NCBI RefSeq assembly: GCF_026151205.1
Contig: NC_087072.1
Location: 4,636,084 to 4,700,083, forward strand
Length of the DNA stretch: 64,000 bases
Reading direction: 5' to 3'
From: Bolinopsis microptera
Lineage: Eukaryota > Ctenophora > Tentaculata > Lobata > Bolinopsidae
The position numbers and the translations under genes are program-made. Of this stretch, positions 2,013 through 59,498 are shown in pieces. How positions within the stretch are numbered: position 1 is the first letter of the stretch; every line of letters starts with the position of its first letter. Below the pieces are notes generated by a model. It was not told the DNA's origin. It saw nothing but the letters and a program-made list of their open reading frames with translations, and searched no databases.

Positions 2013-4229
2013 TCATGAGATATTTATTCCCTTTCTCTTGGCAACACACGGATTTTTATGTAAATATTGAACTTGTTGCTTCTTCTTTTCGATATAATTT
2101 ACACCCTCTATTTTAGCTAAAACTATATTTGACACTTCCCAAAAGTTGCCTGTGTCTACTAAATTATTAGTCTTTTTAAATTCTTCTAGATTAATTTTAA
2201 AATCAATAACAGACACCGAATTTCTAACAAAAGATGGCAATTTGTTCCAAAAGCTGATAACACGCTCTGATAAAAAATTATTAGACAAGGTTTTAATATT
2301 TCTATCAATATTGTTAGATTTAGTGCTAACAATTTTATCTCCCGATCTACTTAAATTGAAAATATCTTTTCCATACTCAACCAATCCATTTACAATTTTG
2401 TAGGCTTCAATCAAATCTCCTCTAACCCGTCTCTCTGCGAGTGTTGTAATCTGTAAGGCATCCAACCTTTCACTGTAAGGAAGTGTTCCAATATCATCAA
2501 TAAGGCGTGTGAACCTTCTCTGGACATTTTCCAGTTCAATGATAGTAGCCCAATTCCCATGGCAGGCAGGTGGAGACCACAACTGAGCACAATACTCCAA
2601 GTGGGGTCTTATTATAGTTTTATAAACATTTCTCATAACGTTAAGTTCTCTTATAATGAGATTCCTTGTAACCCATGCAATCATACTGTTTGCTTTACTA
2701 ATACAACTTTTAATATGTTTCGACCATTTCAAATCTGAAGAAGTTAAAACTCCAAGATCTTTCTCTGCTTCAATACATTCAAGTGTAACACCACTAAATA
2801 CATATTCTTGAAGGGGATTTTCGTTAAATGGAACATGCATTATTTTGCATTTGCTAGGATTAAACTTTAACAGCCACACATTTTGCCAGTTTTGCAAGCT
2901 TTCTAACATATTGAAAGTGCTTTCAGTGTCATTGGCATCCATAATAACTTTAAGATCATCTGCAAACAGTTTTGATATACCATTAATACAATCAGGCAAG
3001 TCATTGATAAAAATGACAAACAATAAAGGACCTAAAACAGACCCTTGTGGGACGCCTGATAAAACATCACGAAGGTAGGAATATGCTCCTCCAACGAATG
3101 TCTTAAATCTTCTTCCAGATAAAAAGTCTTTCACAATATCTAAAGTGTTACCACTTATACCCAAATTTCTCATTTTAGTAAGTAGTCTATGATGTGGAAC
3201 ACTGTCAAATGCTTTACAAAAATCTAAGTAAAACACATCTACGGGTGCACCATCTTCTAATAGTTCGATGATACATTCTACACTCTCTAATAGATTAGAT
3301 AAACAAGATTTACCTTCTACAAATCCATGCTGGTTTGGATTTATCTTTTTACTAACAAAACTCATAATATGCCTCCTTACTAATTTTTCATATAATTTAC
3401 ATAAAATGCATGTAAGTGACACTGGTCTGTAATTTAGGGCATCTTTCCGACTACCCTTTTTATAAAGAGATGTAACATTTGCTGTCTTCCACTGTTCTGG
3501 AATTTTTCCACTTGAAGCACATGTTTGAAATAATTTAGTCACAGCAGAAACAAAACTTGAATTATGTTCAAGTTCTTTTAATAATTTAGGATGAATGCCA
3601 TCTGGCCCTTTACTTTTACTAATATTAATTCTTTTCAGTTCTCTGCCAACATCATCCATTGTTATCTCAATATTTTCAATGTGTAACTCATCCGCAATAA
3701 AATAACATTCTCTGTTCAAAGGTCCATCTGGTTCTTTGACAAAAACTGAAGCAAAAGCATCAGCCAATACTTCGGCAGTTTCAAAATTACTTTTGGTCAA
3801 AGATCCGTCCGGTTTTTCCAGGGATGATACACAACTTTTTAACACTCTTTTCCCTCTTAAATATGCATAAAATGGCTTCGTATTATATTTCATACACTGA
3901 GTAATTTTTCTTTCATAATTAACTTTACACTTAAATGACTTACTATCAAACTGTCCTTGTTGGTTCAGTGCAACATTAAGATTTTCAGAAGAAGGATTAT
4001 TATCAAAAATATACCAACATTTATCTGTCTTTTTCCTGCATCTTTTTAGGGATGAATTTGCCCAAGGCTCACATTTAAAGTTCTTTTCCGTCGGAACTAT
4101 ATCAGATACTAAGTTAAGCTTTGAGTGTAACTCACTCCACATATCTTCAGAAGTTAAAGTACCCTCACTAAAAGACCAGTCAATTTCAGCTGATCTGTGT
4201 AACAATTCTTTGCCAGAGACTTTTCCCAT
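2013..4229 (-). pseudogene. CR1-like ORF2, reverse transcriptase part
   Basis: This is the reverse transcriptase and C-terminal portion, 738 residues open. Visible RT blocks in order are KGPDGIHPKLLK, NYRPVSLTCILCKLYEK, DFCKAFDSVPHH, the SGVPQGSVLGPLLF block and FADD, which replaces the usual YADD and keeps both metal-binding Asp residues. The thumb-like RPHLEYCAQLWSP block typical of CR1 elements follows. The frame opens with Met at 4229 but the endonuclease lies upstream in another frame. The two frames overlap over 4154-4229, so ORF2 is broken by a single frameshift just after the endonuclease, or is read by recoding. The rest is uninterrupted, which suggests a young copy. Confidence 0.88.
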
Positions 4230-5025
4230 AATTTTCTAGGCTCCTTTGCAGCTTCATCATCTTGCTTACTGTTACTAAGACTTAGATTTAATTCTACATT
4301 AAAACAAACATGATCGCTCTTTCCCAAGGGGGAGACAATCATTACTTCATTGACAATAGCTTCGTTTGTAGAGAGAACCTGATCTAGTGTACTCTCTTGA
4401 AGTTTACCGCTGACAACTCTACGTCTGGTAACTTCATCTGTGATATACCAAACCAAGCCATTGTCTTGTACACATTCCATAAAATTCTTTTCTATAATTA
4501 AACCCTTATTACTTGTTCCTAAAGGAGCATTAACAGTTCCACTAAGCCAAGATACATTTGGTAAATTTAAATCTCCAACTAGGATTGATTCAACATTAAA
4601 AACAGCTAGTTTTGCAATCATTTTGGTCATCGCATTGTTCTGCGCTTTAGAAAGAGACATTGATCTATAAATACATGCAATATTTACCCTACCAATGTTG
4701 CTATCGAATTCAACAGCAATCGAATCAGTGACCCTAAACCAATCTATGACAACTGGGTTCAAAGAGTCTTTAATATAAATAATACAGCCTCCACCACTAC
4801 TAACAGAACTTTCTCCTACTTCTTCCTTAACTGTAAAATCTCTATCTTTTCTAAATATTTTGAAACCAGGTATGCTAATTTCAGCATCAATAATTTCATT
4901 GTTAAAATGAGTTTCATTTATGCAAACAATGTCAGACTGGTACAGCGAAACAGCACTTCTCAGTTCACAAAACTTATTATATAAACTATTACTGTTACTA
5001 TAAAACAATTTAAGGTTTAGGTATT
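4154..5025 (-). pseudogene. CR1-like ORF2, APE endonuclease part
   Basis: Apurinic-endonuclease-like domain at the N-terminus of ORF2. Visible motifs are CINETHF near the start (catalytic Glu), the GGGCIIYIK strand, LVGDLNLPNVSW (Asp and Asn of the active site), LDQVL, and the C-terminal SDH triad end (LGKSDHVCF). It nicks target DNA to prime reverse transcription. It overlaps the end of ORF1 by a few bases, has no ATG at its head, and leaves frame at 4154 instead of running into the polymerase. Confidence 0.88.
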
Positions 5026-5690
5026 CTTTATCTTTGCTTTCTCTGCAAGTCGCTTTCTCCGTTCCTGTCTCACAAAAAATTGGACGTCTCTGTCAGCTCT
5101 GTTCAGATCCTGATTGATCCAATAAACTTCTTTCTTTGCTTTTTCAGAATCCACTTCTATCTTCCAACCTTTACCATAGTTACTCCAATGCAATGCAGCC
5201 TCTTTTGATTTTAGTTTTACTATCAGCGGTCTAGGTTGATGTTCCCTGCTTTCACCAGATTCGGTTAATTTACCTGCCCGGAAACAGGACACAATCACGT
5301 CTTCTTCCATGCCACAGGTTTCATGTAAAAACTTGAGATCATTGCTTTGAGATCTGTTCTCTTTGATAGCCATTTCGGGAACGTGTCTGATGATCACATT
5401 ACATTCTCTTTTGATCCGTTCAATCTTGTCAGCATCAATCTGTTGGACTGTTGCCTTCACTAATTGAGTTGGTGGCTTGTCACTAATAGTTGCCTGGAGG
5501 TCAACCTTCGCGGCATCAACGTAGCTCTTCACTTTTGAAGATGATTCATTGACTATATCTTTTTTGACAGCAGCCATTGCTGTTGGTAACTCGTTCTGCA
5601 GACTGTTTTTAACAGCATTGGTAACCGTTTCATTAATGGTTTCACTCAACTTAATCAGCACTGTTGTCGCATTGACAATGCAGTGTGGAC
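5017..5690 (-). CDS. LINE ORF1 protein, 5'-truncated
   Basis: ORF1 of the CR1-like element, about 220 residues remaining. The visible order is a K-C-P-H-C motif at the cut 5' edge (possibly the end of a zinc-binding finger), an amphipathic coiled-coil-like stretch (about residues 10-75), then an RRM-like region with VIIRHVPEM and DVIVSCFRAGKL, and a basic tail ending at 5017. Such proteins bind LINE RNA as chaperones. The element begins inside the ORF at about 5692, so no native start codon is present. ORF1 and ORF2 overlap slightly in different frames. Confidence 0.8.
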
Positions 5691-5694
5691 ACTT

Positions 5695-5809
5695 AGAGAG
5701 ATATGGTCTATAGTAAGAGATTTTCCATTAAATTACTGTACCAGTATAGTAAGGTTCTAAGAAAGAACATATTTTGTAAAGTTGTGTAAGCCGTGACCAG
5801 GCAAGAGAT
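5695..5809. repeat. 107-bp tandem repeat, unit 3
   Basis: One further unit of the array at 1600-1782, isolated between the two LINE insertions. Confidence 0.85.
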
Positions 5810-6830: not shown

Positions 6831-7640
6831 GTAGAATAGTGGAGCATTACGTAGTTACTATTATCAGGCTTGGTTGTGGCCGGGGTCAACAATGGTTGGT
6901 CCGACACCAGGGGATGTCTTGACAACACTGGGCTCTGGCAGAGCGAGAGTCAGCAATGGTTGACTCAGATAGGTAAAGCTAGACTAAGAGTAAGAGCCCG
7001 GGAGAAATAGTCAGCGCTGGTTGACTTAGATAGATAAAGCTAGACTAAGAATAAGAGCCCGGGAGGAATAGTCAGCACTGGTTGACTTAGATAGATAAAG
7101 CTAGACTAAGAATAAGAGCCCGGGAGGAATAGTCAGCACTGGTTGACTTAGATAGATAAAGCTAGACTAAGAATAAGAGCCCGGGAGGAATAGTCAGCAC
7201 TGGTTGACTTAGATAGATAAAGCTAGACTAAGAATAAGAGCCCGGGAGGAATAGTCAGCACTGGTTGACTTAGATAGATAAAGCTAGACTAAGAGTAAGA
7301 GCCCGGGAGAAATAGTCAGCACTGGTTGACTTAGACAGATAAAGCTAGACTAAGAATAAGAGCCCGGGAGGAATAGTCAGCAATGGTTGACTTAGATAGG
7401 TAAAGCTAGACTAGGATAGTAGTAGAATAGTGGAGCATTACGTAGTTACTATTATCAGGCTTGGTTGTGGCCGGGGTCAACAATGGTTGGTCCGACACCA
7501 GGGGATGTCTTGACAACACTGGGCTCTGGCAGAGCGAGAGTCAGCAATGGTTGACTCAGACAGATAAGGCTAGACTAAGAGTAAGAGCCCGGGAGGAATA
7601 GACAGCAATGGTTGACTCAGATAGGTAAAGCTAGATTAAG
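6831..7640. repeat. 61-bp minisatellite with ~590-bp higher-order repeat
   Basis: A 61-bp unit containing GTCAGCACTGGTTGACTTAG and AGCCCGGGAGGAAT runs about ten times between 6950 and 7640, several copies being identical. A ~130-bp leader (GTGGAGCATTACGTAGTTAC through CTGGCAGAGCGAGAGTCAGC) occurs at 6836 and again at 7425, so leader plus array form a higher-order unit of about 590 bp present at least one and a half times. Confidence 0.9.
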
Positions 7641-13496: not shown

Positions 13497-15086
13497 CTAA
13501 TCATGTTTAAAATGGGATCTTCGAAAGAACATTACAAACCCAAAGTAAACGATTCTGAAGAGTAAATAAGAAACAAATATTGCAATAAGAAGGACAAAAC
13601 CTATAATGTCTAAATGGTACATCTCCAAGAAATTCTGCTGTTTGATAACCTGGTTGACCAAGTAGTCCAAGTTTCTGTACTTTAACAGCAAGTTCAAGTG
13701 ATATAGCAATTTTTCTTTTCCATCAGCTGGCTCAGTGGTATAGATGTCGACCGCTTTAGACATCTCAGCGCGATATGAGTCATTTTCTTCTGTCATTTTA
13801 TTAAGTATGTGATTCAGGTGTTTCTTTGTCATTTTGTTAGGAAGAATCATTTCTCCAAAACCTCTGTATTGAACGGACTCACCATTAAGAGCCTGTTCTG
13901 CAAATACAGGAGTACACAACACTGGAACCTGGTAATATATTGTTTCAATTTTACCATTGTTCCCACAATGTGATATGAAGAGTTTGATAACTCCACTAGC
14001 CAATAGGTCTCGTTGGGGGATCCAGGATGAGAGATAGAACTTGGTTGAAAGTGCAGGGAGTTTGTGTTGAGTTTCTGTGTGGACTTTCAGAATAACACTT
14101 AAATTGCTTTCTTCTAGTACCTCAAGCAAGGTGGTGTGCCATTTCAACCATGTGAGATCAGTGTATGTTCCCATTGATACAAGAACAATGGGGCCCGTTT
14201 GTTTTTCAACAAATTCTTTTACATCACCTTGAAGTGGTTGTCCTTCCTTCAAACTTGAACCTCCAACTTGAACCACATTATTAGCAACTTGATATGGGAA
14301 TGAAAATGCTGGATGATCATTCAAAATGAAAAGCTGTATTCTGTCATTTAAGGATTGAGTTGATTTAACGCCATGTTTTTCATAAGTCGGTTGCAACATA
14401 TCCTCAATAGAAGATGTCAACATTGCTCCGCCGGAAACTAGGTTATACATAGCATAGAATCTCTTCCAAAATCCTGGTTTTTCTCCATTGAAAACTTGAA
14501 TTGCCAGACCAGGTTCGCTGCAGAGAAACATGGGAAGATTTTGAACCTCTCTAGTTTTGCTGTACTCAACCTCTGGAATGTAGGCAGCTAGTGGAATGTC
14601 ATCATCATTAGTCACTGCAAGAATTGGAAGAGCAGTTCGTTCCTCAGCAATAATAAGATCAAATTTTCCTTTTTCTATCAAGGCTAAGAATTGATCACTA
14701 GTGTAATAGTCGATGAACATGCGATAGAGCCTTTTCCAACTTTTTCTACACAGTTCATTTGAAACCATAGTATCTGTGTACATGAACTGGTCCCTCCCTG
14801 AGTTTATTACATCTTCCAAGCATTCATATACTATATCATCAAATTCTGTTGCAGTCAAAATTTCCCAGAATGGCGGAAGCAATTTGAAGTTTTCGTGCTG
14901 AATAGTATGACGATCATCAATCCTGAGAGATACAAAAGTTATTTCGTGTCCCTGTTTGGCGAGTAGATGTCCAATATCTGACAAGGCAAAATAGTGACTA
15001 CCCGGAAATGGGGCAGTTACAAGTATCTTAGCTCCCTCTGAGTTGGAAAATAAAAACAGGAATAGCAGCCATTGCAGTTGTATCAT
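13497..15086 (-). CDS. UDP-glucuronosyltransferase, copy 1
   Basis: A single-exon gene of 529 residues, the normal length for the family. It transfers glucuronic acid (or another sugar) from a UDP-sugar to small lipophilic molecules in the ER. The N-terminal signal peptide (residues 1-18) is followed by PFPGSHYF with the catalytic His at residue 31. FDLIIAEE (142-149) is the position where vertebrate enzymes carry the catalytic Asp, here Glu148. The donor signature starts at about residue 354 (SSWIPQRDLL) and includes LFISHCGNNGKIE (369-381) and FAEQALN (395-401). A membrane helix lies at 493-516, followed by a short basic tail with the ER-retention-like end KHD. The start Met sits right at the signal peptide and aligns with copy 2. 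The next gene is a tandem paralogue about 1.7 kb upstream. Substrate cannot be told. Confidence 0.95.
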   Translation of the reverse strand: MIQLQWLLFLFLFSNSEGAKILVTAPFPGSHYFALSDIGHLLAKQGHEITFVSLRIDDRHTIQHENFKLLPPFWEILTATEFDDIVYECLEDVINSGRDQFMYTDTMVSNELCRKSWKRLYRMFIDYYTSDQFLALIEKGKFDLIIAEERTALPILAVTNDDDIPLAAYIPEVEYSKTREVQNLPMFLCSEPGLAIQVFNGEKPGFWKRFYAMYNLVSGGAMLTSSIEDMLQPTYEKHGVKSTQSLNDRIQLFILNDHPAFSFPYQVANNVVQVGGSSLKEGQPLQGDVKEFVEKQTGPIVLVSMGTYTDLTWLKWHTTLLEVLEESNLSVILKVHTETQHKLPALSTKFYLSSWIPQRDLLASGVIKLFISHCGNNGKIETIYYQVPVLCTPVFAEQALNGESVQYRGFGEMILPNKMTKKHLNHILNKMTEENDSYRAEMSKAVDIYTTEPADGKEKLLYHLNLLLKYRNLDYLVNQVIKQQNFLEMYHLDIIGFVLLIAIFVSYLLFRIVYFGFVMFFRRSHFKHD

Positions 15087-15202
15087 ATTCCTGAGTGAGA
15101 TTTGTTTACTATGAAATATGTATGGGAATTAACTATGAAGTAAGCACATATTTGTGTAAGATAACCTCCCAACAAGTGTGTATGCATTTAAAAAAGTCTT
15201 TA

Positions 15203-15667
15203 CAAAATTTCGCCATATTTTCGGACCGCCAAAATTTCGGTCGTCGTAATAGAATCCGTCGCATTATCTTTTAGCTTATTTCAATGACTGTGCCTTCACT
15301 GCTTTATTTTGTTTCTAAAAAGTAATATCAAGTAAAATAAATAAATAAATTCTGGCATCTTGGGACAAATTATCACCACACCAATGACGAATTGAATGTC
15401 AAGCAATACAGTTTAAATTTGCATTAAAATACATGTATGTGCTAACATGAAAGTCTTACAGTCTTAATACAGACTAAGTTTGAACATGATTTTACCGAAT
15501 TTCAGAAATTTCCTTACTGCTTACTGTCACAAAAAATGATGAAAAATACCCTTATTTTCTGTGACGTCCGAAATTTGACGGTTTTTGTTCAATTTCGCCA
15601 TATTTTCGGACCGCCAAAATTTCGGTCGTCGCAAATTAGGCCGCCATAAATATGTCTTGTAAGGTAG
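15203..15667. mobile_element. ~465-bp MITE in UGT copy 1 flank
   Basis: Present upstream of UGT copy 1 and absent at the matching place upstream of copy 2, where the flanks AAGTCTTT and GCAATATAAT are almost adjacent. It has short inverted ends (CTTTACAA and TTGTAAGG). It carries one ~50-bp block containing AATTTCGCCATATTTTCGGA twice in direct orientation, at 15214-15260 and 15592-15640. A related block occurs in the element at 44246-45053. No coding capacity, so it is presumably mobilised by a transposase elsewhere. Confidence 0.65.
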
Positions 15668-16748
15668 GCAATATAATATTAATAATGAAACAAGTTTTTG
15701 AAGTATATAGTTTACTTTTTATCTTTGTTTATTAATCACAATACAAATTTATCATATAACAAAACGAGTATATTTAATTGAGTTTGAGGCGTCCTAATCC
15801 TCTACATATTCAAGATTGGTGCTTCTCTTGTATCACATATAATAATCAATTCAATATGAATTTAAAAACAGATAAATAGACTTTAAACAATAATTAATGT
15901 CTTTGATATGTCACGATCAATTGTGTTTAATCCAATTACAAAATCACATTCACACTTATATACGGGAATAATCAGTAATTGAACTTCCATAACTATGATT
16001 CAATAGGCATAACAACTTAAGTAATAGACAGGCTCCATAAATCATTATTTGTAAATCATTGCTATAAAATGACTTACCATAAAAATTACTATTCGTTATT
16101 AATTACCAACATAACATACATGACATATTAACTAGTTAGAATGTTGAAATTTCGCTGAAGTCTTCCCCTCCTGATGAATATGATCGTTGAATTGCATGAT
16201 ATTGAAATTAGACCAAATTTAACTACTTAGACTTGAGTCAATTATATGGGCAAACGTTTAAAACATTATGAAAGCATTTTAAAATGTAGCTATAGCTACT
16301 TCATTTTGCAACTAGTTGAGAGTCTTTACTTTCAACAAAAGCTTCTTATTTTCTTTGTTAAACTGCTAACGTAGTTTCATATCGAATAGCAATGGTTCAG
16401 TCAATGAAGTTAACCCGGTATAGAATTAAATCTCTGGACAGAGTTAGATAGAATTGCTCCCTGGCCGCAGGTTGTAAACATTCATTGTAAATAAATTAAA
16501 TATATTAAGCTCATCAAATATTGATAATTAATTAACATGCAGATATAAAGATTGATAGCATAATAAATTAGAGAAAAATGACACACAATTTCGAACTTTC
16601 TCCTAATCATAACAATCAGATCAAAGATGAATAAAAAGTATGCCTGTCTTATGAAGTAAAATATTTTGTTCGGAATTATAGCATCTTGCCAATCAATTGA
16701 GCATAAAATAAACATAAAATACAGAACATTTAACTAAAACGTTTTCGA

Positions 16749-18338
16749 CTAATCTTGTTTTTGACGAGATTTACAAAAAACCATTACAAACCCACAGTAA
16801 ATAATTCTGGAGAGTATATACGAAACAAATATTGCGATAAGAAGGACAAAACCTATAATGTCTAAATGGTACATCTCTAAGAAATTCTGCTGTTTGATAA
16901 TCTGGTTGACCAAGTAGTCCAAGTTTCTATACTTTAACAGCAAGTTTAAGTTATATAGCAATTTTTCTTTTCCATCAGCTGGCTCCGTTGTAAAGATGTC
17001 GACTGCTTTAGACATCTCAACGCGATATGAATCATTTTCTTTTATCATTTTATCAAGTACTTGCTTCAGGATTTCCTTTGTCATTTTGTTAGGAAGAATC
17101 ATTTCTCCAAAACCTCTGTATTGAACGGACTCACCATTAAGAGCCTGTTCTGCAAATACAGGAGTACACAACACTGGAACCTGGTAATATATTGTTTCAA
17201 TTTTACCATTGTTCCCACAATGTGATATGAAGAGTTTGATAACTCCACTAGCCAATAGGTCTCGTTGGGGGATCCAGGATGAGAGATAGAACTTGGTTGA
17301 AAGTGCAGGGAGTTTGTGTTGAGTTTCTGTGCGGACTTTCAGAATAACACTTAAATTGCTTTCTTCTAGTACCTCAAGCAAGGTGGTGTGCCATTTCAAC
17401 CATGTGAGATCAGTGTATGTTCCCATTGATACAAGAACAATAGGGGCCGTTTGTTTTTCAACAAATTCTTTTACATCACCTTGAAGTGGTTGTCCTTCTT
17501 TCAAACTTGAACCTCCTACTTGAACCACATTATTAGCAACTTGATATGGGAATGAAAATGCTGGATGATCATTCAAAATGAAAAGCTGTATTCTGTCGTT
17601 TAAGGATTGAGTTGATTTAACGCCATGTTTTTCATAAGTCGGTTCCAACATATCCTCAATAGCAGATGTCAACATTGCTCCGCCGGAAACCAGGTTATAC
17701 ATAGCATAGAATCTCTTCCAAAATCCTGGTTTTTCTCCATTGAAAACTTGAATTGCCAGACCAGGTTCGCTGCAGAGAAACATGGGAAGATTTTGAACCT
17801 CTCTTGTTTTGCTGTACTCAACCTCTGGAATGTAGGCAGCTAGTGGAATGTCATCATCATTAGTCACTGCAAGAATTGGAAGAGCAGTTCGTTCCTCAGC
17901 AATAATAAGATCAAATTTTTCTTTTTCTATCAAGGCTAAGAATTGATCACTAGTGTAATAGTCGATGAACATGCGATAGAGCCTTTTCCAACCTATTCTA
18001 CACACATAGTTTGAAACCATAGTATCTGTGTACATGAACTCGTCTCTCCCTGAGTTTATTACATCGGCCACACATGCATAAGCTATCTCATCAAATTCTG
18101 TTGCAGTCAAAATTTCCCAGAATGGTGGTATCAGCTTGAAGTTTTCGTGCTGAATAGTATGACGATCATCAATTATTAGAGATACAAAAGTTATTTCGTG
18201 TCCCTGTTTGGCGAGTAGATGTCCAATATCTGACAAGGCAAAATAGTGACTACCCGGAAATGGGGCAGTTACAAGTATCTTAGCTCCCTCTGAGTTGGAA
18301 AATAAAAACAGGAATAGCAGCCATTGCAGTTGTATCAT
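16749..18338 (-). CDS. UDP-glucuronosyltransferase, copy 2
   Basis: Tandem paralogue of copy 1 with the same length (529 residues) and the same single-exon form. The frame is open for 49 more codons upstream to 18485, but the Met at 18338 starts the signal peptide and aligns with copy 1, so it is chosen. His31, Glu148, the SHCGNNG donor loop and the FAEQALN motif are all kept. Compared with copy 1, residues 117-420 differ at only about five places. Residues 84-116 (acceptor-binding half) differ at ten, and 421-437 and the cytosolic tail are also divergent. About 100 bp of sequence upstream of the start codon is shared with copy 1, so the two genes probably share promoter elements. Confidence 0.95.
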   Translation of the reverse strand: MIQLQWLLFLFLFSNSEGAKILVTAPFPGSHYFALSDIGHLLAKQGHEITFVSLIIDDRHTIQHENFKLIPPFWEILTATEFDEIAYACVADVINSGRDEFMYTDTMVSNYVCRIGWKRLYRMFIDYYTSDQFLALIEKEKFDLIIAEERTALPILAVTNDDDIPLAAYIPEVEYSKTREVQNLPMFLCSEPGLAIQVFNGEKPGFWKRFYAMYNLVSGGAMLTSAIEDMLEPTYEKHGVKSTQSLNDRIQLFILNDHPAFSFPYQVANNVVQVGGSSLKEGQPLQGDVKEFVEKQTAPIVLVSMGTYTDLTWLKWHTTLLEVLEESNLSVILKVRTETQHKLPALSTKFYLSSWIPQRDLLASGVIKLFISHCGNNGKIETIYYQVPVLCTPVFAEQALNGESVQYRGFGEMILPNKMTKEILKQVLDKMIKENDSYRVEMSKAVDIFTTEPADGKEKLLYNLNLLLKYRNLDYLVNQIIKQQNFLEMYHLDIIGFVLLIAIFVSYILSRIIYCGFVMVFCKSRQKQD

Positions 18339-18713
18339 ATTCCTGAGTAAGATTTGTTTAATGTTTATTATGAAATATGTATGGGAATTAACTATGAAGT
18401 AAGCACATATTTGTGTAAGATAACCTCCCAACAAGTGTGTATGTATTTTATTTTGGAAAGTCTTTGCTTCGCAATATAATAGCAATAATGAAGAACAAGT
18501 TTTAGGGAGTATACAATTTACTTTTTATCTTTGTTAATCACAATAAAAATTTATCATATAACAAAAGTATATTTAATTGAGTTTGAGGCGTCCTAATCCT
18601 CTACATATTGGTGCTTCTCTTGTATCATATATGATAATAAATTCAATATGAATTTAAAAACAGATAAATGGACTTTAAATAATAATTAATGTCTTTGATA
18701 TGTCACGACATAC

Positions 18714-21700
18714 ACCAAAACCTTTTTTTCCGAGATTCGGGATTTGACTTCATATTAAGAAAGTATAGATTACAACAATAAGATTTGATGACTATCAGAC
18801 TGAGGATATTTGGTTAACCTCTTCTCACAATGGAGGAAATTATCAACAGCAAAATCAACCACATCATCAAATTTGTGGAACAGTCAAAAAGACTAGAAAA
18901 AAATCTCCTTGGGTAACCCTCTAGGAGTTAACATGATTGATTGGGAATCGAGCGGTTTACTCGATTAATGTTTACTCAAAATTATAATACAAACAGTAAT
19001 AGATAGAAAATAGTAACGTTAAAGAATTCTTTAAAAAAAACCCTCTGGAAAGGGCACTGCACACGGTTTATCAAAAAGTACACTGTGATCATGAAGTACT
19101 ATGAACTACAGATTTAAAAACACAACGCTTCACGCTACACATGATATTACACATCCATAATATCGATCCTATAGGTTAAGAAGTTTAGAATTGCACTGAA
19201 CAGCTTGGACTATTGTTTTTAAAATTTTGTGCAAAATTTTACCATCAGTGATTAATGATTTTGGCCGGTAACTCAGCGCTTACAGTAATTATGAGTGCGC
19301 GATTGAGATTAATGTATGGAAAAAGAATTTAGCGGCAGTGAAATGCTTGCTTATCTACGCTAAGTGGGGGTAGTTATGCGAGTGGTTATTATATTGGTAG
19401 TCAGTAATTGCATGTTGTTATTTAATTTGTGTCATTTAGTGTAGTTTCTATGTGCTGGGTTGTGTGATTTTCATACTGCTCCCTGTTGCAAGCCATTAAT
19501 TAGACAATAGACTTAATTTAAACTTAGATTATATTCGTTTCAGTTGAAATTCGATTCAGGTTAAATGTTAAAAGTTTCAATTTCACGTCGAAAGTTTAAA
19601 TTTCACGTCAGGAAATATAAAATCCACATAGAAGCACCAATTCCTTGTCTGCCCGCTGAAGTACTACAACTGAAGTGGGTTTGCTCTGAGACAGGTAGTG
19701 ACAGCTTCAAGAATCCAGAGGTCTGTTGCGTTGATATTTATTTATTTATGATTTCGTATATACTTTGGGAGTCCTGGCATGCAGCTAGCAGTCATTTTAA
19801 ACGTTTTTTAGCTGATTCTTTAACTGAACATTATTTACAGTCCGTACAAGAAGCCCTTTAAAGGATTATACAATTGAATAATAAATGACGAAGTTACAGA
19901 CCGAACAAGGCCGAGAGAAGCAAAAAGATTCGTCTTATCAAGCTGATTACGATTCTGTAAAAATTATTTCTTTTTAAAACTGACACTTTTTGAGTTATAG
20001 GCATTTTAAGCCTTAAATCTGCCTTTTTTACGATGAATTTATTAAGTCCTTTGAGGCCAGATTTCATACCTTAAAACTCAAAATTGAGAGAAAGCCTGTT
20101 ACAAAAAGTTGGATATGATCATCAGCTACACTCACAAGAGAAATGTTCAATTTGCTTACGCGTCCAATTTGTGAGCTCTGTTATCAGTAAAGTTTATTAG
20201 CTTTTAAAGTGTAAAGGGGGGCCTGATGGCTACTTTTTACCAAGATGCAGTGAAACAGATTGGAACAACAGAGGCGGTTTTTCATTCTTTGTACAAGAAG
20301 ATCGGTCGAAAAGATCATGTTGAGTTCACTGAGGAGCTGGTATTTACAAATGGAGGAACGAAAAAGGATCTGTCATCGTTCTTTTTCTAAGTTGTCAATT
20401 GTTCGCTAGACTTGATCAAGTTGCTGAAAAGTGGATGTTTAGAAGTAGATTCGTTGAAATCGGAAGCGAAAACATGCAATCAAAGAACTAGCTGAGGTCC
20501 AGAGTGAGCTACTGGTTAGCAAAAGGGAACAGATAGATATTCTTCAATCTGGTATTCAGACTACATTGAAGAAAGAACTGAAATCATACAGCGAGGCTGT
20601 TAAGAAGACAACTGTTGAATCGATCACTTTGAAGAAAATTCAAACCGCTGTAAAAGACATTGTAAAAGATAGGAGTAAAAACCTGATGATATTCGGTTTG
20701 GAGGAAGCAGCGGATGAAGATATTCACTCTACAGTCAAGGAAGTATTCGTGTCGATTGAAGAGAAACCCTTTTTTAAGGCAGAGAGGATCGGGAAACAGC
20801 ATAGTAGTGACATTTCCAGGCCTGTCAAGGTCGTATTGGACAGTTCAGCCGCATTGACAGATCTTTTGAGAAAATCGAAGGAGCTCAAAAGCACGATTTT
20901 CAAAAATGTTTACTTGACACCTGATCGAACCCTGGAGCAGAGAGTAGAACATCGAAAACTGGTAGCACAATTGAGAGAGAAAGCTCGAGAAACGCCAAAC
21001 GAACATCATTTTATCAGGAAAGGTGCAGTTTGCAGTCAAGCAAAATCAGTAGAAGATAAGGACACTGTCTCGACAAGTTCAGCAATCAAAAGTAGCAGTG
21101 CAGGAGTAACTAAGAAAAAGGAAAAGAAACCCAGACCACTTTTACCGCATCATATAGCGTGTAATCGACGACCACCACTAGGATACGTGTCACCAGTCAC
21201 AACTGACTCATCAGATTATGATAATTTGTTATTATAACTGGGTTGATTTCTGAGTGATAACGCTGCTTATCTATTAACAGCAACAAATTTTCTGGATTAC
21301 ATGACCGATAAGAAGTTTGTTAAGTAGATACATACAACGGTTTTAATATTATTACATGACACATTATAGGATTGAATTAATATTGTTATTAAAATGCTCA
21401 TTGTAGCCATATATTTTAGATTTTCATCATCATACACTCACAAGAATTTTTGGAGCGATATCTTATGACCTGGGTGATTGGTAAAATGTACAACTTTTTT
21501 TGCAAAAATTTCAATTTTGCTTCTCTCGGCCTTGTTAGGTCTGTAACTTCGTCATTTATTATTCAATTGTATAATCCTTTAAATAGCTTTTTTTACGGAT
21601 TGTGAATAATGTTTTTTTTAAATCAGCCAAAAAACGTTTAAATTGACTGAAATATCGGTATTTCAGTGACAGACTTCTCAATATTTCCAAAAATATCCAT

Positions 21701-21816
21701 TTTCCCGAATGTGTGTACTTTCAAAAAATTTGTCCAATGCCTCAAATCTTACAGTTGTAATCTATACTTTCTTAATATGAAGTCAAATCCCGAATCTCGG
21801 CAAAAAGGGTTTTGGT
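18714..21816. mobile_element. 3.1-kb TIR element with LINE ORF1-like gene
   Basis: Terminal inverted repeats of about 63-75 bp begin ACCAAAACC and include GAGATTCGGGATTTGACTTC; left 18714-18788, right 21742-21816. A second, inner inverted pair (19790-19926 against 21517-21650) shares ATTCAATTGTATAATCC and its complement. The terminal and inner parts are about 100 bp apart on the right but about 1 kb apart on the left, so the left arm seems to have received an insertion. The element interrupts the duplicated UGT flank, whose empty version is at about 15929. Just outside, CATA lies on the left and TTAA on the right; the empty site reads TCAA, so any 4-bp duplication is unclear. No transposase is visible. 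Confidence 0.8.
20226..21237 (+). pseudogene. LINE ORF1-like nucleic-acid-binding protein
   Basis: Coding starts at an ATG at 20226 (MATFYQDAVKQIG), is broken by a stop near 20390 and frame changes at about 20390-20500, and runs on without interruption from 20566 to 21237 (223 residues). The intact part has an amphipathic N-terminal helix, RSKNLMIFGLEEA (the RNP-like strand of an RRM fold), KAERIGK, VKVVLDS and NVYLTPDRT, and then a basic, Lys-rich tail. This order (coiled coil, RRM, C-terminal domain) is that of LINE ORF1 proteins. There is no endonuclease or polymerase downstream; the TIR arm of the surrounding element follows instead. It may be LINE debris or a gene acquired by the DNA element. 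Confidence 0.65.
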
Positions 21817-22042
21817 TTAATTGTGTTTAATCTAATTAAAAATCACATTAAAAATCACATTCATCACAATCTTATTCGTTCAGTTAAAAATATGGGAATA
21901 ATCAGTAATTGAGCTTCCATATGCCTTAATAGGCATAACAACTTAAGTAATACGACAGGCTCCATAAATCATTATTTGTAAATCATTGCTATAAAATTAG
22001 TTACCATAAAAATTACTGTTCGTTATAAATTACCAACATAAT

Positions 22043-23380
22043 GTTACATACATGTTACATGGCGAGATCTCCATCCAAAAGGATTAGTCTGCGTCGACTG
22101 CGTCATTGCTTTGTATTATACAACTTCGGCGGGTAACATTTCTCCATCCCTTTCGGTCTGCAGCTAATCTTCTCATACAATCAATCGTGAGTCCATTCCG
22201 ATCCAATCTCTGCTCAGCATCCTCAATAAATACATCATTTAAGGTCTTCCTAGGCCTGCCTCTTGATCTCTTCCCATGCTTGGGTTTCCATTCAAGTAAA
22301 TAGTTGGGTAACCGATCTTCAGGCATTCTACTGACATGTCCAAACCAACGCAGCCGTTTTGTTGTTATTATGTCAGCAAGAGCAGTTATTTATGCCCTTC
22401 TTAAAACATCCTCATTACTTACTTGATGGAACCACCTCACTCTCAGGATTCTTCTTAAGCAGTACTGATGGAAAGACTCCAATCTTCTTGTCTGCACTTG
22501 AGTCGTGTTCCATATCTCACATCCATAGGTCAGAATGGTAAGAACAGCTGCGATGTAGATTCGCACTTTGTTGTTAATGCTTATGTTCTTATTCTTCCAA
22601 ATGTTGTTGAGTTGGTTAAAAGCTCCAGTTGCTTTTCCAATCCTGACACTTATTTCTTTATCAATCTTGCCATCTGATGTAATTTTGGCACCCAAATAAG
22701 TGAATTGAGTGACCTGCTTTGCAGAGTTTCCAGCGACAGTTATATCTATGGTCCTATTCTCTGGGAGTGGGTGCTGCGATGTATCTTTCCCAATGACCAT
22801 GATCTCTGTTTTCTTTGCGTTCATCTTTAAACCCCCGAGCCCACAGTATTTCGCAATATTGTCCGTAGTTTCTTGCAGTCCTTCAACAGTGTCATCCATT
22901 CCTGCGATGTCATCAGCATAGTCCAGATCAATGACACATTTTTCCGGTTGTCTGGAACTTTGTCTGTACTGAAGAGTAAAACCACGGGATATATTTTTAA
23001 ACTTCTCTGCAAGTTCTAATCCCCAGTTAAGTACAAGATTAAAAATGGGGGGCCCTTGCACATCACCTTGTCCAGTCCCCGAATCGACATCAAACCATCT
23101 TGTCAATTCTCCATTGACACGAACTGCACTTTCAGTTGCTCTAAAGAACGCTTTGAAAACATTGATATATTTTGTCGGAAGACCATAATGTTCAAAAGCT
23201 TTCCAAATAAAGTCACGATTGATTGAATCAAAAGCAGCTTTAAAATCAATAAAGTTTATGTACAAAGGGACGTTGAATTCTATACAATTGTGTATTATAC
23301 AATGAAGTGAGTACAGCTGATCTATACAAGAACGGTTTCTCCTGAAACCACACTGATTCTCTCTGAGCAATTTAAAAAAA
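22043..23380 (-). mobile_element. 5'-truncated RTE-like LINE
   Basis: Inserted in the duplicated UGT flank. ACCAACATAAT occurs on both sides (22032-22042 and 23381-23391) while the empty paralogous site has a single copy near 16106. Coding content is reverse transcriptase from the NQCGFRRNRSC block onward. The 5' part, including the endonuclease, is lost. Confidence 0.88.
22084..23375 (-). pseudogene. RTE-like reverse transcriptase, one stop codon
   Basis: RT blocks in order: CGFRRNRSCIDQL, FIDFKAAFDSINRD (catalytic Asp), GTGQGDVQGPPIF, and DYADDIAG with the YADD box. The RTE-type end follows: TYLGAKITSDGKIDKEI, the YGCEIW region and LRRILRVRWFHQVSNEDVL. One in-frame TAA at 22387-22389 separates this from the final 80-residue tail (GKRSRGRPRKT), which is otherwise in the same frame and ends at 22084. 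The copy is 5'-truncated and has at least this one stop. Confidence 0.88.
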
Positions 23381-23679
23381 ACCAACATAATATACATGAC
23401 ATATTGACTAGTTAGAATGTTGTAATTTCGCTGAAGTCTTCCCCTCCTGATGAATATGATCGTTGAATTGCATGATAATGAAATTAGACCAAATTTAACT
23501 ACTTAGACTTGAGTCAATTATATGGGTAAACGTTTAAAACATTATGAAAGCAATTTAAAATTTAGCTATGGCTACTTCATTTTCCAACTAGTTGAGAGTC
23601 TTTACCTTCAACAAAAGCTTCTTATTTTCTTTGCTAAACTGCTAACGTAGTTTCATATCGAATAGCAATAGTTCGGTAA

Positions 23680-28400: not shown

Positions 28401-31400
28401 ACATAACACAGCCCTTAATTCGCTCATATACATTATACATGCACAAGTGAGCCGATTTAAAGATGTCTGCCTTTATAGTTTACTTAACAGTTAACATTTG
28501 AAGTTTACGAAGCACGACTAAAGTTTGTTGCTCGTTATAATTCATCTTTGCAGCGGTTAAATGAGAGCGCGCGCCGACTTAAATAATAAAAAAGGATAAT
28601 TTAAAGATCGAACACGTGAATTTAACATATTTTAACAATATTTTGACGTTATAATTGGCTTTTCCAGTTACCATACGTGTTTGTCTATGACGTGGAGACT
28701 TTCAAAGTGCTTACTGTTTTTGAAGGACCTAAAGGAATTAGGTAAGTAAAAGATGTGATATTTTCTGCAGAAAAATATATTGTTTGAAAGTTAAACAAAC
28801 TTTAGATGCCGATCATGTGACATCCAGTATTGACTTTACACTGTCTGACTAATTAATTCGGAAAGACGCACAGTATTAAAAGTATTAAAAGTAAGCGAAA
28901 TTTAAAGATCGACTGGGAAAAACAATTTCCTGATCTCGTACAAAATCTGTGCACGTCAAAGAAAAGAACATTCAATTATTGTTACAATGAAAGTAGCAGT
29001 GAAAATAGGAAGGTTTTATGTTTTGACCGAGTGGCCTGAGAAAATAAGATTGTTCTGCACAATATTATGTGTTCGTGAAAATACCAAGGTGATTAATAGA
29101 ATAACTTAATTAAAATTTTCACATTTCAAAACGGTTAGAATTTCATCTAACTGCAAACTTACGTTAAAAATGAAATAATTAATAAAACGTGAGGAGGGGT
29201 ACTTAGTACTTCAGATGAAAATACGAATATCAGATGAACCTTCGCTGGTCCTGAATCTGGTGAATTAGATTTATCCTGTGATGAACTGTGAGACTAATCT
29301 ATAAATTCCTTTGAAGGCTCGTAATTTGAAATTCGATACGTGAACTGACCCGCATTGGGCAATGTGCTAAGTCGGCCGCCAGTCGATTTGATTAGGCCCA
29401 AAACGGCTGACATAAACCTTTAATTGGGATGGGAGCAGTTTCATGACTGACTGATGAGTTGTTGTCCAGTGAGCAACTGTCTAGTGAAGGGACTGTATAC
29501 TGAAAACACATTATCATGCTATCTTCTCAAGTCTACTCAATCAGCCACTTTTCATTGACCACAGCGTTATACTTCGTTGTGAAGTGTCTGTAATGTGGGC
29601 TACTGTGTCTATGCATTGTTATGCACACAAGCACTTTATCGTAGCGTAATATGAAAATGTCGGAAATATTCACAGGCTAGTACTGGTTTTAAAATAAAGA
29701 ATATAACAGTTTTAAACTTGTGTAATTATATACTTGTTGGTTTATTGGGTTCATTGTGATTAAGATGTATTGGCCTATTGGTGAGATGACAGAAGTGTCT
29801 TTAACTTTGCTGCTCAAAAAACATGGAGCTCATTCTTATCTGGGCTGTTTCCACAGAACTCCATTGGAACTGGGTTCATTACCTATTCAAACTTATTTTG
29901 CTACACAGACCCCTTCCTCAAAATAACGAATCAAGTTTTTTATTACTTCTTTTTTATTACTTTTCGGCTTACTGAAATCATGAAACGATTTTAAGTCGCC
30001 AAAATTTCTGTTTGATTAAAAATGCACGACAGCCTCATCCGAATGTTACCGAACAAATTGAAAAATCATACCAGGAAAATTAATTTAAAAGTTGATTAAT
30101 AAAACCCCCCGTTATCAAATTTCAAAACAATGCCACGCCGCTAATAAATTATTGCCCGATGTTTTAATCGATTCCACGATTCTAAGAATGTAAAAGATTT
30201 GCTGCCCTTCTGGAGTATTTACGGATAGTCAGTTGGTGGGATATTGACAGATCAGTGTCATCAGATTATGGTTTATACTAACTGATATACGCCCTCGAAT
30301 TCCCTACCAACAACCTACCAATAACCTACCAATAACCTACCAACAACTTACCAATAACCTACCAACAACCTACCAATAACCTACCAATAACCTACCAATA
30401 ACCTACCAACAACTTACCAACAACCTACCAATAACCTACCAACAACCTACCAATAACCTACCAACAACCTACCAATAACCTATCAATAACCTACCAATAA
30501 CCTACCAACAACCTACCAATAACCTACCAATAACCTACCAATAACCTACCAATAACCTAACAATAACCTACCAATAACCTACCAATAACCTACCAATAAC
30601 CTACTAACACATACTAACAACCTACCAATAACCTACCAATAACCTACCAACAACTTACCAATAACCTATCAATAACCTACCAATAACCTACCAACAACCT
30701 ACCAATAACCTACCAATAACCTACCAATAACCTACCAATAACCCAACAATAACCTACCAATAACCTACCAATAACCTATCAATAACCTACCAATAACCTA
30801 CCAACAACCTACCAATAACCTACCAATAACCTACCAATAACCTACCAATAACCTATCAATAACCTACCAATAACCTACCAACAACTTACCAACAACCTAC
30901 CAATAACCTACCAACAACCTACCGATAACCTACCAACAACCTACCAATAACATATCAATAACCTACCAATAACCTACCAACAACCTACCAATAACCTACC
31001 AATAACCTACCAATAACCTACCAATAACCTAACAATAACCTACCAATAACCTACCAATAACCTATCAATAACCTACCAATAACCTACCAACAACCTACCA
31101 ATAACCTACCAATAACCTACCAATAACCTACCAATAACCTATCAATAACCTACCAATAACCTACCAACAACCTACCAATAACCTACCAATAACCTACCAA
31201 CAACTTACCAACAACCTACCAATAACCTACCAACAACCTACCAATAACCTACCAACAACCTACCAATAACCTATCAATAACCTACCAATAACCTACCAAC
31301 AACCTACCAATAACCTACCAATAACCTAACAATAACCTACCAATAACCTACCAACAACCTACCAATAACCTACCAATAACCTACCAATAACCTACCAATA

Positions 31401-33827
31401 ACCTAACAATAACCTACCAATAACCTACCAATAACCTACCAATAACCTACCAATAACCTAACAATAACCTACCAATAACCTACCAATAACCTACCAATAA
31501 CCTACTAACACATACTAACAACCCACTAACAACGTTGCCATTAGGGCGTAGCTCCTCGTGAGCCTCTCTTGTCGTGAATTCCTCTCTCACGTGCGCTTCT
31601 TCTTATCTCCTCTTAATTTTTCGTCGTCTTACCGAAATCAAATTAAAAAATCATATCAAGAAAATCGATAATTAAAATTAAATATTAAAACCGCCCAAAA
31701 TTATGTAGTTGCCCAGTTCCACCTCCCAACTGGATGGTGGACTGGAATTACCAAAATAACTGTACAACAACCGTTACCGCTGATCCTTGTCCGCTGCATT
31801 CTCTGAACAGTGTATACCATTTGCTGTTTGCAGGAACTGTTCGGTGTGCTTTGCACTTGAAAATACATCTGGTCAGTACATAATTATGGAACTAGTTGAC
31901 TTGTGGTTATTAGCAATTAAACCAAGAACTAGATATTTCAGTCTGGAGGGATCCCAAACAGGGCACTCACAGCGCCTCTTCGTAACCAAGTTCGATCCTG
32001 TAGACAAGTTTACTGTGATGAGTGCGGGGTGGGACAGCAGTGTCAAACTCTGGGACACTAGAACTAACAGTGTCATTTGGAATGTCTCTGGTAGGTTGGA
32101 TTAAATAACTTTAAAGTCCAAATCCAGGCCTTAACTATGATTCAATTGTCTCTGCACGAAGCCTCCCAGATTCAATTTCTTGTTCAACTGCGATTTAAAC
32201 TGATTATATGGTTTATCATTGATGCATTATTCTTCATTCAAATGGAGACAAATTTTTAAAAAAAATTTCATATTTCAGTCAATAACAATGCTCAAAATAA
32301 TAATCTGCATGCTAATTGTGAGCTTATTGTGTGCTAATTATGTGGTAACTACTTCATATTACAGGTCCCAAAGTATGCGGTGAAGGAATTGACAAGTCAG
32401 GAAATTATTTAGTAACAGCATCTTGGTTTGTTAAAGACGCTCTGCAGGTAAATCCTAAATTATTTAAGTATTTTAGAATTTATTTGTTAAATGTTATTGT
32501 TAGCTTGTAGAGTTCGTGTGCTTGTTTGTCACTGACAAAAGAACATATTACTTACCGACTGCTGCATTCACGAATGCGTCATGTTGAAGAATTGTTTATT
32601 TGGAAAACAGCTTCTGTCAATAAAGTTGGTTCTAATTAGATTTACGCTTCAATAAATGAAAACATTGCATATAATAGTGCACGTCAATTTCATATGCGTT
32701 GCCCACTGTATTTGAATTCGGCAGAAGCCGCTGGATAGTAGATATATTCGATACAAGTCAAGCTTAGTCTCTATTGATGAATAAGAGTCGTAAAAAACAA
32801 AGGCCTTTTGTCTCGTATCCAGGATAATTGGCCCTAACGAGTTTGTGCGATGTTAAAGCAGGGTAGATTTACAAAGAAAGGGTGTTCATTAGTCACGCAT
32901 AGAGGAATGTTTGGAGTTTTTTTGAATCCCCGATTGTCATCAGTCGCTAAATGTATCAGGTTTGTTTGGCATTGAAGTTCATACAATTTTTCGCGGTATT
33001 CGCAATTCGGCAAGTGCTTATTGTTGTCTGGTTACTGACTGGTCTGGCAAAATAAAATCGGTCACAAAGTACTACCACGTGTTTTCATTTGATTTGGAAC
33101 CCGCGTAAATATTGTAATGATGCAAATCTTAATTTCAGCAGTTAGTGAGTTACCGCGCATCTATACTATATAAGTATTATATACTATAAAATATAGACTA
33201 TATATATACTAGCTTCTAAGCTATGCGCGCTAAGCTAAACTCTACTGTATCATTACATTATTAAAAATGATGAAGTCTAGTTGAGCCGTACTATACAGTA
33301 TACTCAGTAAAAACCACGTGAAATTTGAATGAATTAGTCATTAGCCATGATCATTTTGCTTATTTCGCTCCATTTCAACCATAAAGATATAACATCCTCA
33401 GTTATGGGATACCAGATCTCAGAAACTGGTCTCGACTCTGAATTGTCGAACTGTGGAGGATTCAGAGTTTTTGTACTGCGGACAGTTTTACACCCACGAC
33501 AAAGTCATCTGTGGAGGAAGTGGGGTCACAAATGCTAAACTCGTGGATACTGTGGAGAATAAGGTACTGTTTAAATTAAACGTGCATATAAATAAACCGA
33601 TTTTCAGTGAACTTTCTGCTTTCAAATTATATTTTTGGTTCAGTTAAAAAAGATTGAAAGAAGTTTATTTTTCCGCAGAACAATTTGACGCTGATTTAAT
33701 ATCCCAGGTAGTTGACGAGGTTATGACAAATCTGAAAGTGATGCAGAGCTTGTGCCTGTCACGTGAGAGGAAGATGTGTGTGACAGCTGGTCTGGGAGAC
33801 CACGCCACGTGCGCCACTTTCTCATGA
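25463..33827 (+). CDS. WD40-repeat protein, eight exons, 5' end missing
   Basis: Exons 25463-25595, 27463-27574, 27876-28006, 28668-28741, 31942-32090, 32365-32447, 33423-33563 and 33708-33827 (TGA) all have AG/GT borders and compatible phases; together they give 313 residues. Visible WD motifs include GYGNGDVEVYNVETGE, GPSGKVRQID, LPYVFVYDVETFKVL, and SAGWDSSVKLWDTRT, the best match to the repeat consensus. The later repeats have GPKVCGEGIDKSGNYLVTAS and a GGSG turn. A seven-blade propeller is likely, acting as a protein-interaction scaffold. The pattern (IC)G-GID...LVTAS is shared with a group of little-studied WD40 proteins, so I give no symbol. The start codon was not found. Intron 4 is 3.2 kb and contains a minisatellite. 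The gene converges with the EF-hand gene, the stops being 625 bp apart. Confidence 0.85.
28742..30300. other. WD40 gene intron 4, left part
   Basis: Intronic sequence without a recognisable gene or element. Confidence 0.5.
30302..31532. repeat. 11-bp minisatellite, ~110 copies
   Basis: An 11-bp unit (CCTACCAATAA, with CAACAA and TATCAA variants) fills 1.2 kb inside an intron of the WD40 gene. Variant order recurs in blocks, and the sequence CTACTAACACATACTAACAA occurs at 30601 and again at the right end (31502). This suggests growth by block duplication as well as slippage. Confidence 0.95.
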
Positions 33828-40247: not shown

Positions 40248-40934
40248 TATAGAAAACCGAGTTCTCTTGGTATTTAGTGTATGCTAGTCAAGCTCTAGTC
40301 ACGAAGCACGAACGGCAGGGCGTACCGTATAGTAGAAATGAAACGAGTAAACTAAAATGGATAATTAATTAAATGGAAAAGTAATACAAAGTGAACGTCA
40401 ACAGATAAAAACCTCCAAGTGTTCGCTCTAATCAATTGACGTGATTATAGATCACTCGACGTGTCTAATCACAGCTGGTAGTGCTCAGTAAGACTGGCTA
40501 CCGTCAATTTGAATCCCTTAAAATGATTAAGGGGCAACTAAGAAGTGAGCTCTCCACATCCGGCTCTTCGGGTATACTCTCAAAACTCGTCACGCCACAC
40601 TGCGTGACGGCACAACGCATCTGCTTGTACCACGTGACACGCCGTCTCGCCAATGAGCACTCCACTAGCAGTCACGCTGTGGTCGCGAGGACCAACCACA
40701 GGTCTGGCTGTTAGTCAGGTGCAAAGTGAGCGGACGGCTCGTTACAGACAGTTAGTCTGACAGTAGTTCTGCCAGCCAACCGACTTACACTCAAAATGTG
40801 TAACTCCCAAATACGAACATATAAAAACATTGGTTAATATATACCCGGAAACACATACTAAATTCTACGTCCCGTAAACGTTATACTAAAACTAAGATAT
40901 CCTAAAAGATATCTCTAAATACCATATTACAACA
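40248..40934 (-). repeat. 3' LTR, 687 bp
   Basis: Left-hand LTR. It differs from the other LTR at only a few positions that I could see (for example CCGAG against CGGAG near 40257, and AAAATG against ATAATG near 40521). Confidence 0.92.
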
Positions 40935-41520
40935 TCTCTACCCAAAAATTTTTTTCGAATATTTTAAAACAATAAAATAATCGCCCTTTTCAAAATTTAA
41001 ATTTCAATGCTCCAACGCATCAAAAGTCCAAAACTTAAAAATAAGACAAGTCTCAAAATATAATACACGGCCCTAACCCTGTGCATTAAATTCAAATCAT
41101 CAAAATCCTAAAGTTAAAACTGAAATTGACTTCCACAAATCTTTCAAAACTTTCCAAAACTTTCAAATACTTCCCTTTTGCACCAAGTTGTAGAGTCTTT
41201 GGTGTTGAGTCTTCATCATTAGATAGAGATGTATCGAATCTCTAAATCTTCTTTGACAAGCAAACAAAGAAGTCAAAATAAATTCGAAGATTTCTACGTT
41301 TCCACCACTAAAGCAGCCCTGAGCGAGTCGTGTTGCGAGTAAAGATTCTAATATCCCTATCAGTACTGTTCTGAAAGATAACACGTGTTATACCTAAGTA
41401 AGGTACGGTTCCACTGCTAAATACTAAGTGGAAAGTCTAGCTAAGTGAGTAAGACTATACTGTTCTGAAACTAGATTCCAAAAGTAAGTGTACTTCCCTA
41501 TCCGGGCATCTCCTCGTCTT

Positions 41521-42753: not shown

Positions 42754-42818
42754 TACAATCTCATAAATACGTGTGTTTTTGACCGCGGGTGACCTCCTCT
42801 TAAATCTAGGGCCACCCT

Positions 42819-43028
42819 TTAGAAGTTTAAAGGCACCTGACTGTTAGGTCTATACACTCTGTTCCAACTCTGTTGGCCATAACCACTCTGATATGAAGAC
42901 CCTCTGTCTTGATATCTACCTCTATTACCAGCTAATCTGCTCGGACAGTTCCTCTGAAAATGTCCAATATCACCACACTCCCAACAACCTTCCAACTGAT
43001 GGCGAACGTTACGATCATCATTTCTCAT
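42819..43028 (-). CDS. Gag zinc-knuckle fragment
   Basis: A 69-residue frame containing CWECGDIGHFQRNC, a CCHC zinc knuckle of nucleocapsid type (C-x2-C-x4-H-x4-C), followed by an Arg/Gly/Tyr-rich tail. It lies 0.3 kb inside the 5' LTR on the minus strand. The capsid part expected upstream is absent. Confidence 0.7.
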   Translation of the reverse strand: MRNDDRNVRHQLEGCWECGDIGHFQRNCPSRLAGNRGRYQDRGSSYQSGYGQQSWNRVYRPNSQVPLNF

Positions 43029-43355
43029 GGTAGCTTAATCTCACAAATACGAGCTATCTATCTAGATTTAACTGTACTGCGAAGCTTACAAACGGCTGTA
43101 AAACTGGGTGCTCGTTAAAACGATAGCACTGAACTGGAATATACAGGTACCACAAAATGCGTAGCAACACTTACCAATTCTAGTAGGAAGTACTCAAGAT
43201 CTAGAACAACCTCCAACGTAATTCTTCTGAACTGCGACGTACACCGAACTTAGCTTAGCAAATGACAACGTTAGGATCTAATCGAAACTATACTGAATAT
43301 AGGTGATAATAGAAGGATCACGAGCAAAATAGCAACACTAAAAGTGGCCTCCAGA

Positions 43356-44042
43356 TATAGAAAACGGAGTTCTCTTGGTATTTAGTGTATGCTAGTCAAG
43401 CTCTAGTCACGAAGCACGAACGGCAGGGCGTACCGTATAGTAGAAATGAAACGAGTAAACTAAAATGGATAATTAATTAAATGGAAAAGTAATACAAAGT
43501 GAACGTCAACAGATAAAAACCTCCAAGTGTTCGCTCTAATCAATTGACGTGATTATAGATCACTCGACGTGTCTAATCACAGCTGGTAGTGCTCAGTAAG
43601 ACTGGCTACCGTCAATTTGAATCCCTTATAATGATTAAGGGGCAACTAAGAAGTGAGCTCTCCACATCCGGCTCTTCGGGTATACTCTCAAAACTCGTCA
43701 CGCCACACTGCGTGACGGCACAACGCATCTGCTTGTACCACGTGACACGCCGTCTCGCCAATGAGCACTCCACTAGCAGTCACGCTGTGGTCGCGAGGAC
43801 CAACCACAGGTCTGGCTGTTAGTCAGGTGCAAAGTGAGCGGACGGCTCGTTACAGACAGTTAGTCTGACAGTAGTTCTGCCAGCCAACCGACTTACACTC
43901 AAAATGTGTAACTCCCAAATACGAACATATAAAAACATTGGTTAATATATACCCGGAAACACATACTAAATTCTACGTCCCGTAAACGTTATACTAAAAC
44001 TAAGATATCCTAAAAGATATCTCTAAATACCATATTACAACA
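43356..44042 (-). repeat. 5' LTR, 687 bp
   Basis: Right-hand LTR, same length as the left one. Expected to hold the promoter for minus-strand transcription of the element. Confidence 0.92.

Positions 44043-54969: not shown

Positions 54970-59498
<4,529 letters not shown>

Follow-up and report, generated by a model that had tools for sequence, protein, structure and literature searches.

Inverted-repeat DNA elements that carry captured sequence have been described in animals under the name of Pack-TIRs, and single-copy cases are among those described (PMC8277862). In the available part of that source, gap filling is proposed as the origin of the single-copy elements, while the multicopy ones are proposed to derive from replication fork switching followed by transposition. 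A related arrangement is found in MER6, which the available text of PMC6887750 presents as a Mariner-derived MITE holding V-SINE-like sequence. On the side of the retroelements, the closest described protein is ORF1 of type II, encoded by LINEs of the clades L1, CR1, L2 and R1 and, according to the portion of PMC4120745 at hand, composed of a coiled coil, an RRM and a CTD. Finally, LINE derivatives that retain ORF1 only exist as well, as exemplified by mammalian HAL1, or half-L1 (PMC5322556, available excerpt).

The locus described here belongs to the ctenophore Bolinopsis microptera and lies in a stretch of 64,000 nucleotides of contig NC_087072.1, with a GC content of 37%, which is referred to as the window and within which all positions are counted. 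It consists of a block at 18711-21819 that, like the Pack-TIRs of PMC8277862 as far as the available text describes them, has the inverted ends of a DNA element around other coding sequence; unlike them, its cargo resembles a transposable-element gene, and a target-site duplication is unreadable. In analogy with MER6, MITE-type ends enclose a putatively retroelement-related piece; MER6, in the accessible part of PMC6887750, forms a multicopy family in which this piece is SINE-like, whereas the present element is a single copy and its frame is ORF1-like. A putative ORF1-type gene without ORF2 brings the block close to HAL1, which in the excerpt of PMC5322556 ends in poly(A) and is flanked by duplications; the block, in contrast, has neither of them and is bordered by inverted ends instead. 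With respect to LINE ORF1 type II, as outlined in the part of PMC4120745 at hand, the likeness is in the order of motifs, judged by eye, and in a predicted RRM-like topology. The differences are a tail of about 60 residues at the C-terminus of the frame, as read from its sequence, the lack of a recognised ORF2, endonuclease or reverse transcriptase in the unit, and the lack of any significant sequence match.

The architecture of the block is defined by two pairs of inverted repeats, one within the other. An earlier note on this DNA had placed long inverted ends of 63 bp at 18714-21816, together with inner inverted repeats, and both pairs are present, the outer one being slightly larger than described. 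Specifically, the left outer end (18711-18788, forward strand, with ACCAAAACC starting at 18714) and the right outer end (21742-21819, reverse strand) are 78 nt long and 93.6% complementary, while the inner arms, at 19789-19925 on the forward strand (137 nt) and 21515-21649 on the reverse strand, are 89% complementary over 137 columns. At 178 bits, the top-scoring inverted repeat of the element lies far above the 39.2 bits reached at most by 30 shuffles of that stretch in which blocks of two bases were moved, and in the whole window these outer and inner pairs are the only inverted pairs reported with a 14-nt seed and a length of at least 40 nt. The distance between outer and inner repeats is markedly unequal on the two sides: the left spacer (18789-19788), single within the window, measures 1000 nt, and the right one (21650-21741) measures 92 nt and is dissimilar from it. 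In fact, the alignment of the right spacer with the left 1000 nt scores 18, against a mean of 19.4 and a maximum of 27 over 200 shuffles. The idea that outer and inner repeats are a single inverted end of about 300 nt, split on the left by an insert, was therefore rejected; a simple insert being unsupported, replacement or nesting remain. Spacers that are unequal and dissimilar fit a mosaic produced by capture, repair or nesting, and by analogy such a mosaic would also fit the type of origin proposed for Pack-TIRs in the available text of PMC8277862.

That the block is an insertion is supported by a paralogous site in the same window. Two UDP-glycosyltransferase frames on the reverse strand (13497-15128 and 16749-18338, the second matching PF00201 with an E value of 5e-31) are the product of a tandem duplication, as their copies are 95.1% identical over a DNA alignment of 1701 columns and 491 of 530 columns are identical at the protein level. 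The sequences bordering the block belong to the duplicated region. In particular, the left flank (18508-18708, forward strand) is homologous to 15702-15916 and the right flank (21819-22060, forward strand, its first base overlapping the right outer end) is homologous to 15919-16126, so that in the paralogous site (15702-16126, forward strand) the match to the left flank stops at 15916 and the match to the right flank starts at 15919. Everything from 18708 to 21819, including both repeat pairs, the spacers and the ORF, is missing from the paralogue, and the breaks of the alignment at these two positions fall within 3 nt of the inverted ends. Since the block is missing as a unit, it came in at this site, or left the other copy, as a unit. 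The simplest reading of the comparison is that it entered the second glycosyltransferase copy after the duplication, although it may instead have been lost from the first.

The junction itself does not reproduce any simple prediction. When predicted empty sites were compared with the paralogue over 46 nt, the best agreement, an edit distance of 6, was obtained for 0 or 1 duplicated nucleotides, part of this distance being ordinary divergence of the flanks, and no duplication of at least 2 nt gave the best predicted site. An AT duplication results in a distance of 7 of 46. A TA duplication, suggested by TA at 18711-18712 and at 21818-21819, was discarded, its distance of 8 being worse than the 6 found for 0 or 1 nt. 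No clean target-site duplication is thus readable and, as the junction deviates from all of the simple predictions at a few bases, such a duplication cannot be claimed.

The two copies of the duplicated region differ at other points too. Both glycosyltransferase frames are open in one piece, and the copies differ by several insertions. Beside the element, a second block of approximately 22032-23390 is absent from the paralogue; ACCAACATAA is found on both of its sides, at about 22031 on the left and at about 23381, where an A run precedes it, on the right, and once in the paralogue, so that the pair looks like a short target duplication. A reverse transcriptase frame on the reverse strand (22390-23502) extends past this second block. 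Moreover, about 430-450 nt of the first glycosyltransferase copy (15206-15634), located between 44-nt direct repeats, are missing in the second copy and are possibly a small terminal-direct-repeat element; a related pair of direct repeats, 683 nt apart, is found at 44267-45030.

Further repeats are distributed along the rest of the window. Direct repeats of 687 nt (40248-40934 and 43356-44042), 99.7% identical and 3108 nt apart, enclose a frame of 440 aa on the reverse strand (41521-42843) with no Pfam match at the cut-off, and 40248-44042 is a candidate young LTR element without pol. Tandem repeats are present at 30303-31505 (11-bp unit CCTACCAATAA, about 110 copies) and at 6948-7413 (61-bp unit, 7.6 copies, 96% matches), and a 214-nt stretch occurs in three direct copies at 60535-62307, the second being 84% and the third 95% like the first. 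SRCR and ephrin-receptor-like domains are recognised by Pfam in a frame at 55935-57203, and, with the glycosyltransferase and reverse transcriptase frames and the GC content, the window has the look of animal DNA. Neither Rfam, at gathering scores over the whole window, nor a tRNA scan returned any match.

Between the inner repeats of the block lies one long open frame on the forward strand, which extends for 259 aa from stop to stop (20458-21237), has its first ATG at 20686 and was analysed as the protein P0001, corresponding to 20467-21237. In a simple model based on base composition, an open frame of 257 codons is expected about 1e-6 times by chance in such DNA; chance hardly explains it. 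Upstream, an ATG at 20226 opens a piece of 54 codons on the same strand (20226-20390, stop at 20388-20390), and from its position and strand we infer that it is the 5' part of the same gene. The two, however, do not join: they are in different frames, and between 20407 and 20455 the main frame is interrupted by six stops. The third frame is open at about 20333-20491 on the forward strand, overlapping both, and this stretch may connect the ATG piece with the main frame after two shifts, or may be there by chance. Because of this difference in frame, the gene looks broken when it is read unspliced, while a spliced 5' part may leave it intact. It follows that, unless its 5' part is spliced, this copy of the gene probably has no function.

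To which class of proteins the frame belongs is suggested mainly by structure prediction. The earlier note had called it LINE ORF1-like, with an RRM-like layout, and the motif order and an RRM-plus-helix prediction of low confidence fit this description, while no sequence method reaches significance. Specifically, a single-sequence structure model of 20653-21015 (forward strand) gives the order strand-helix-strand-strand-helix-strand-helix, which is that of an RRM with a following helix, at the low confidence of a mean pLDDT of 49 and a pTM of 0.33; a longer piece is modelled less well (pLDDT 45), with only low-confidence helices ahead of the RRM-like part. A Foldseek search with the predicted structure gave 849 matches with E values up to 10, none of which at 0.001 or better. 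The top row, with an E value of 0.045, is something other than an RRM and is followed by U1A (E 0.13), and U1A or RRM is named in 10 of the best 50 of the 849 matches. At the sequence level, P0001 has no match in Pfam (E up to 1) or among PDB sequences (E up to 10).

A comparison closer at hand is offered by a LINE of the same window (2013-5727, reverse strand), composed of a reverse transcriptase frame (PF00078), an endonuclease frame (4154-5092, reverse strand, PF14529, E 1e-8) and a frame in ORF1 position (5017-5727, reverse strand), the last labelled from its position and motif order; endonuclease and reverse transcriptase overlap at 4154-4235 in different frames. P0001 matches the frame in ORF1 position with an E value of 0.081 in a stretch outside the RRM-like part, and their similarity is that of shuffled sequences (z of -0.04 in local and 0.58 in global alignment, 1000 shuffles each); by eye, aligned motifs follow in the same order. 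The LINE frame is likewise without a Pfam match at the cut-off, and the negative Pfam result of P0001 therefore weighs little. Taken as a reading of the predicted fold, the product of the ORF was probably a protein that binds nucleic acids through an RRM and has the layout of LINE ORF1 type II, namely a helical part, an RRM and a C-terminal part. Its relationship to that class, not demonstrated by sequence, is plausible but weak. The protein sets of cnidarians and molluscs include multi-copy predicted proteins with the same general layout, which offers a lead.

As for enzymes, the earlier note had reported that the block lacks a transposase, an endonuclease and a polymerase, and the Pfam scan agrees with it: in 17 stop-to-stop frames of at least 45 aa between 18711 and 21819, among which the main frame was represented by the 256-aa P0001 and by the 121-aa piece 20653-21015, no family of these three kinds was recognised, and the only rows obtained were below the curated cut-offs. 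Shorter frames may contain decayed remnants of a transposase. Likewise, no LINE ORF2 with endonuclease and reverse transcriptase was recognised within 18711-21819. Two reverse transcriptase frames of the window are above the Pfam cut-off and a third is below it; the one at 22390-23502 lies outside the block, on the other strand and in a separate insertion.

The best explanation of these observations, to which we give somewhat better than even chances, is that a non-autonomous inverted-repeat DNA element, mobilised in trans and with the ORF as a passenger, inserted once at 18711-21819 long ago. The outer ends would be recognised by a transposase encoded elsewhere, and the ORF would have been captured by the element, as happens in Pack-TIRs; mobility, mobilisation in trans, capture and the ORF1 nature of the cargo are what we infer on top of the observed inverted ends, the absence of the block as a unit from the paralogue and the frames that do not join. 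A special case of this explanation is that the ORF was brought by an inner inverted-repeat element (19789-21649), which would have jumped into the outer one (18711-21819). The two repeat pairs with unequal, dissimilar spacers speak for such nesting, and so does the CAGTCA with which the inner arms start, an end type known from some Tc1/mariner elements; against it, no duplication is visible by eye at the sides of the inner arms, and neither repeat pair has a separate copy in the window, so that this route is considered rather unlikely. Insertion by reverse transcription of a LINE derivative with ORF1 only, the inverted ends having another origin, has a precedent in HAL1 (PMC5322556, in the excerpt available) and is nonetheless very improbable, as inverted repeats mark both borders of the block, its 3' end has by eye neither poly(A) nor a simple tail, and no clean duplication flanks it. 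A different question, which concerns the cargo and not the insertion, is whether the ORF is unrelated to LINE ORF1 and is a remnant of another element or of a host gene. The missing matches in Pfam and among PDB sequences, and a comparison with the LINE ORF1-position frame no better than shuffles, would agree with this; yet the low power of a Pfam test that the LINE frame itself does not pass, and a predicted order of structural elements that is that of an RRM, make it quite doubtful. The insertion itself is most likely of an ordinary class, and its cargo is what is unusual.

A more far-reaching possibility is that a lineage of DNA elements made the gene of an ORF1-type protein that binds RNA or DNA its own and spreads with it, the protein assisting, for example, transposition or RNA handling. 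In keeping with such a hybrid family, the ORF is enclosed by the inner inverted repeats and these in turn by the outer ends, and its frame is long and non-random; only one copy is found, however, and its gene reads as broken, and we regard this possibility as unlikely. In the 64-kb window there is no second copy of the outer ends, of the inner repeats or of the ORF, the next tblastn match of P0001 after its self-match having an E value of 4. Outside the window, pattern searches with P0001 gave 50 stretches in IMG/VR and 124 in GTDB genomes, none of which was confirmed, and the exact 47-nt core of the outer end has no occurrence in IMG/VR. One degenerate motif pattern gave one stretch in IMG/VR (L001) and another gave none; in GTDB genomes a degenerate pattern gave two bacterial stretches (L002 and L003). 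All three were rejected as chance matches: L001 has 62% GC, many upstream stops in the matched frame and no tblastn alignment with P0001 at an E value under 0.6, and, of L002 and L003 inspected by eye, one has a frame full of stops and the other encodes a protein sharing the short motif alone. Nor did the window or these collections yield copies of the ends that lack the ORF, or copies of the ORF joined to a LINE ORF2, the two results that the earlier note had named as refuting its reading. As IMG/VR and GTDB hold viruses and prokaryotes, these negative results say little about copies in animals, for which the two collections are unsuited. In the literature, no DNA transposon encoding a LINE-type ORF1 appears among the matches listed for open PMC full text, a search that leaves subscription papers and Repbase uncovered.

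Stated in full, the hybrid would be an inverted-repeat DNA family whose sole gene is a LINE-derived ORF1-type RRM protein used for its own spread, a proposal that we hold to be improbable. The RRM protein would, for instance, shield or fold the nucleic acid of the element, or would draw on a LINE machinery. If true, this would join class I and class II strategies within one element. Should the ends and the ORF prove to be retained together in further copies, an ORF1-type protein would be encoded by a DNA element, a combination absent among the literature matches listed; if not, the locus would be another MITE-like element holding a retroelement piece, as described for MER6 in the available text of PMC6887750.
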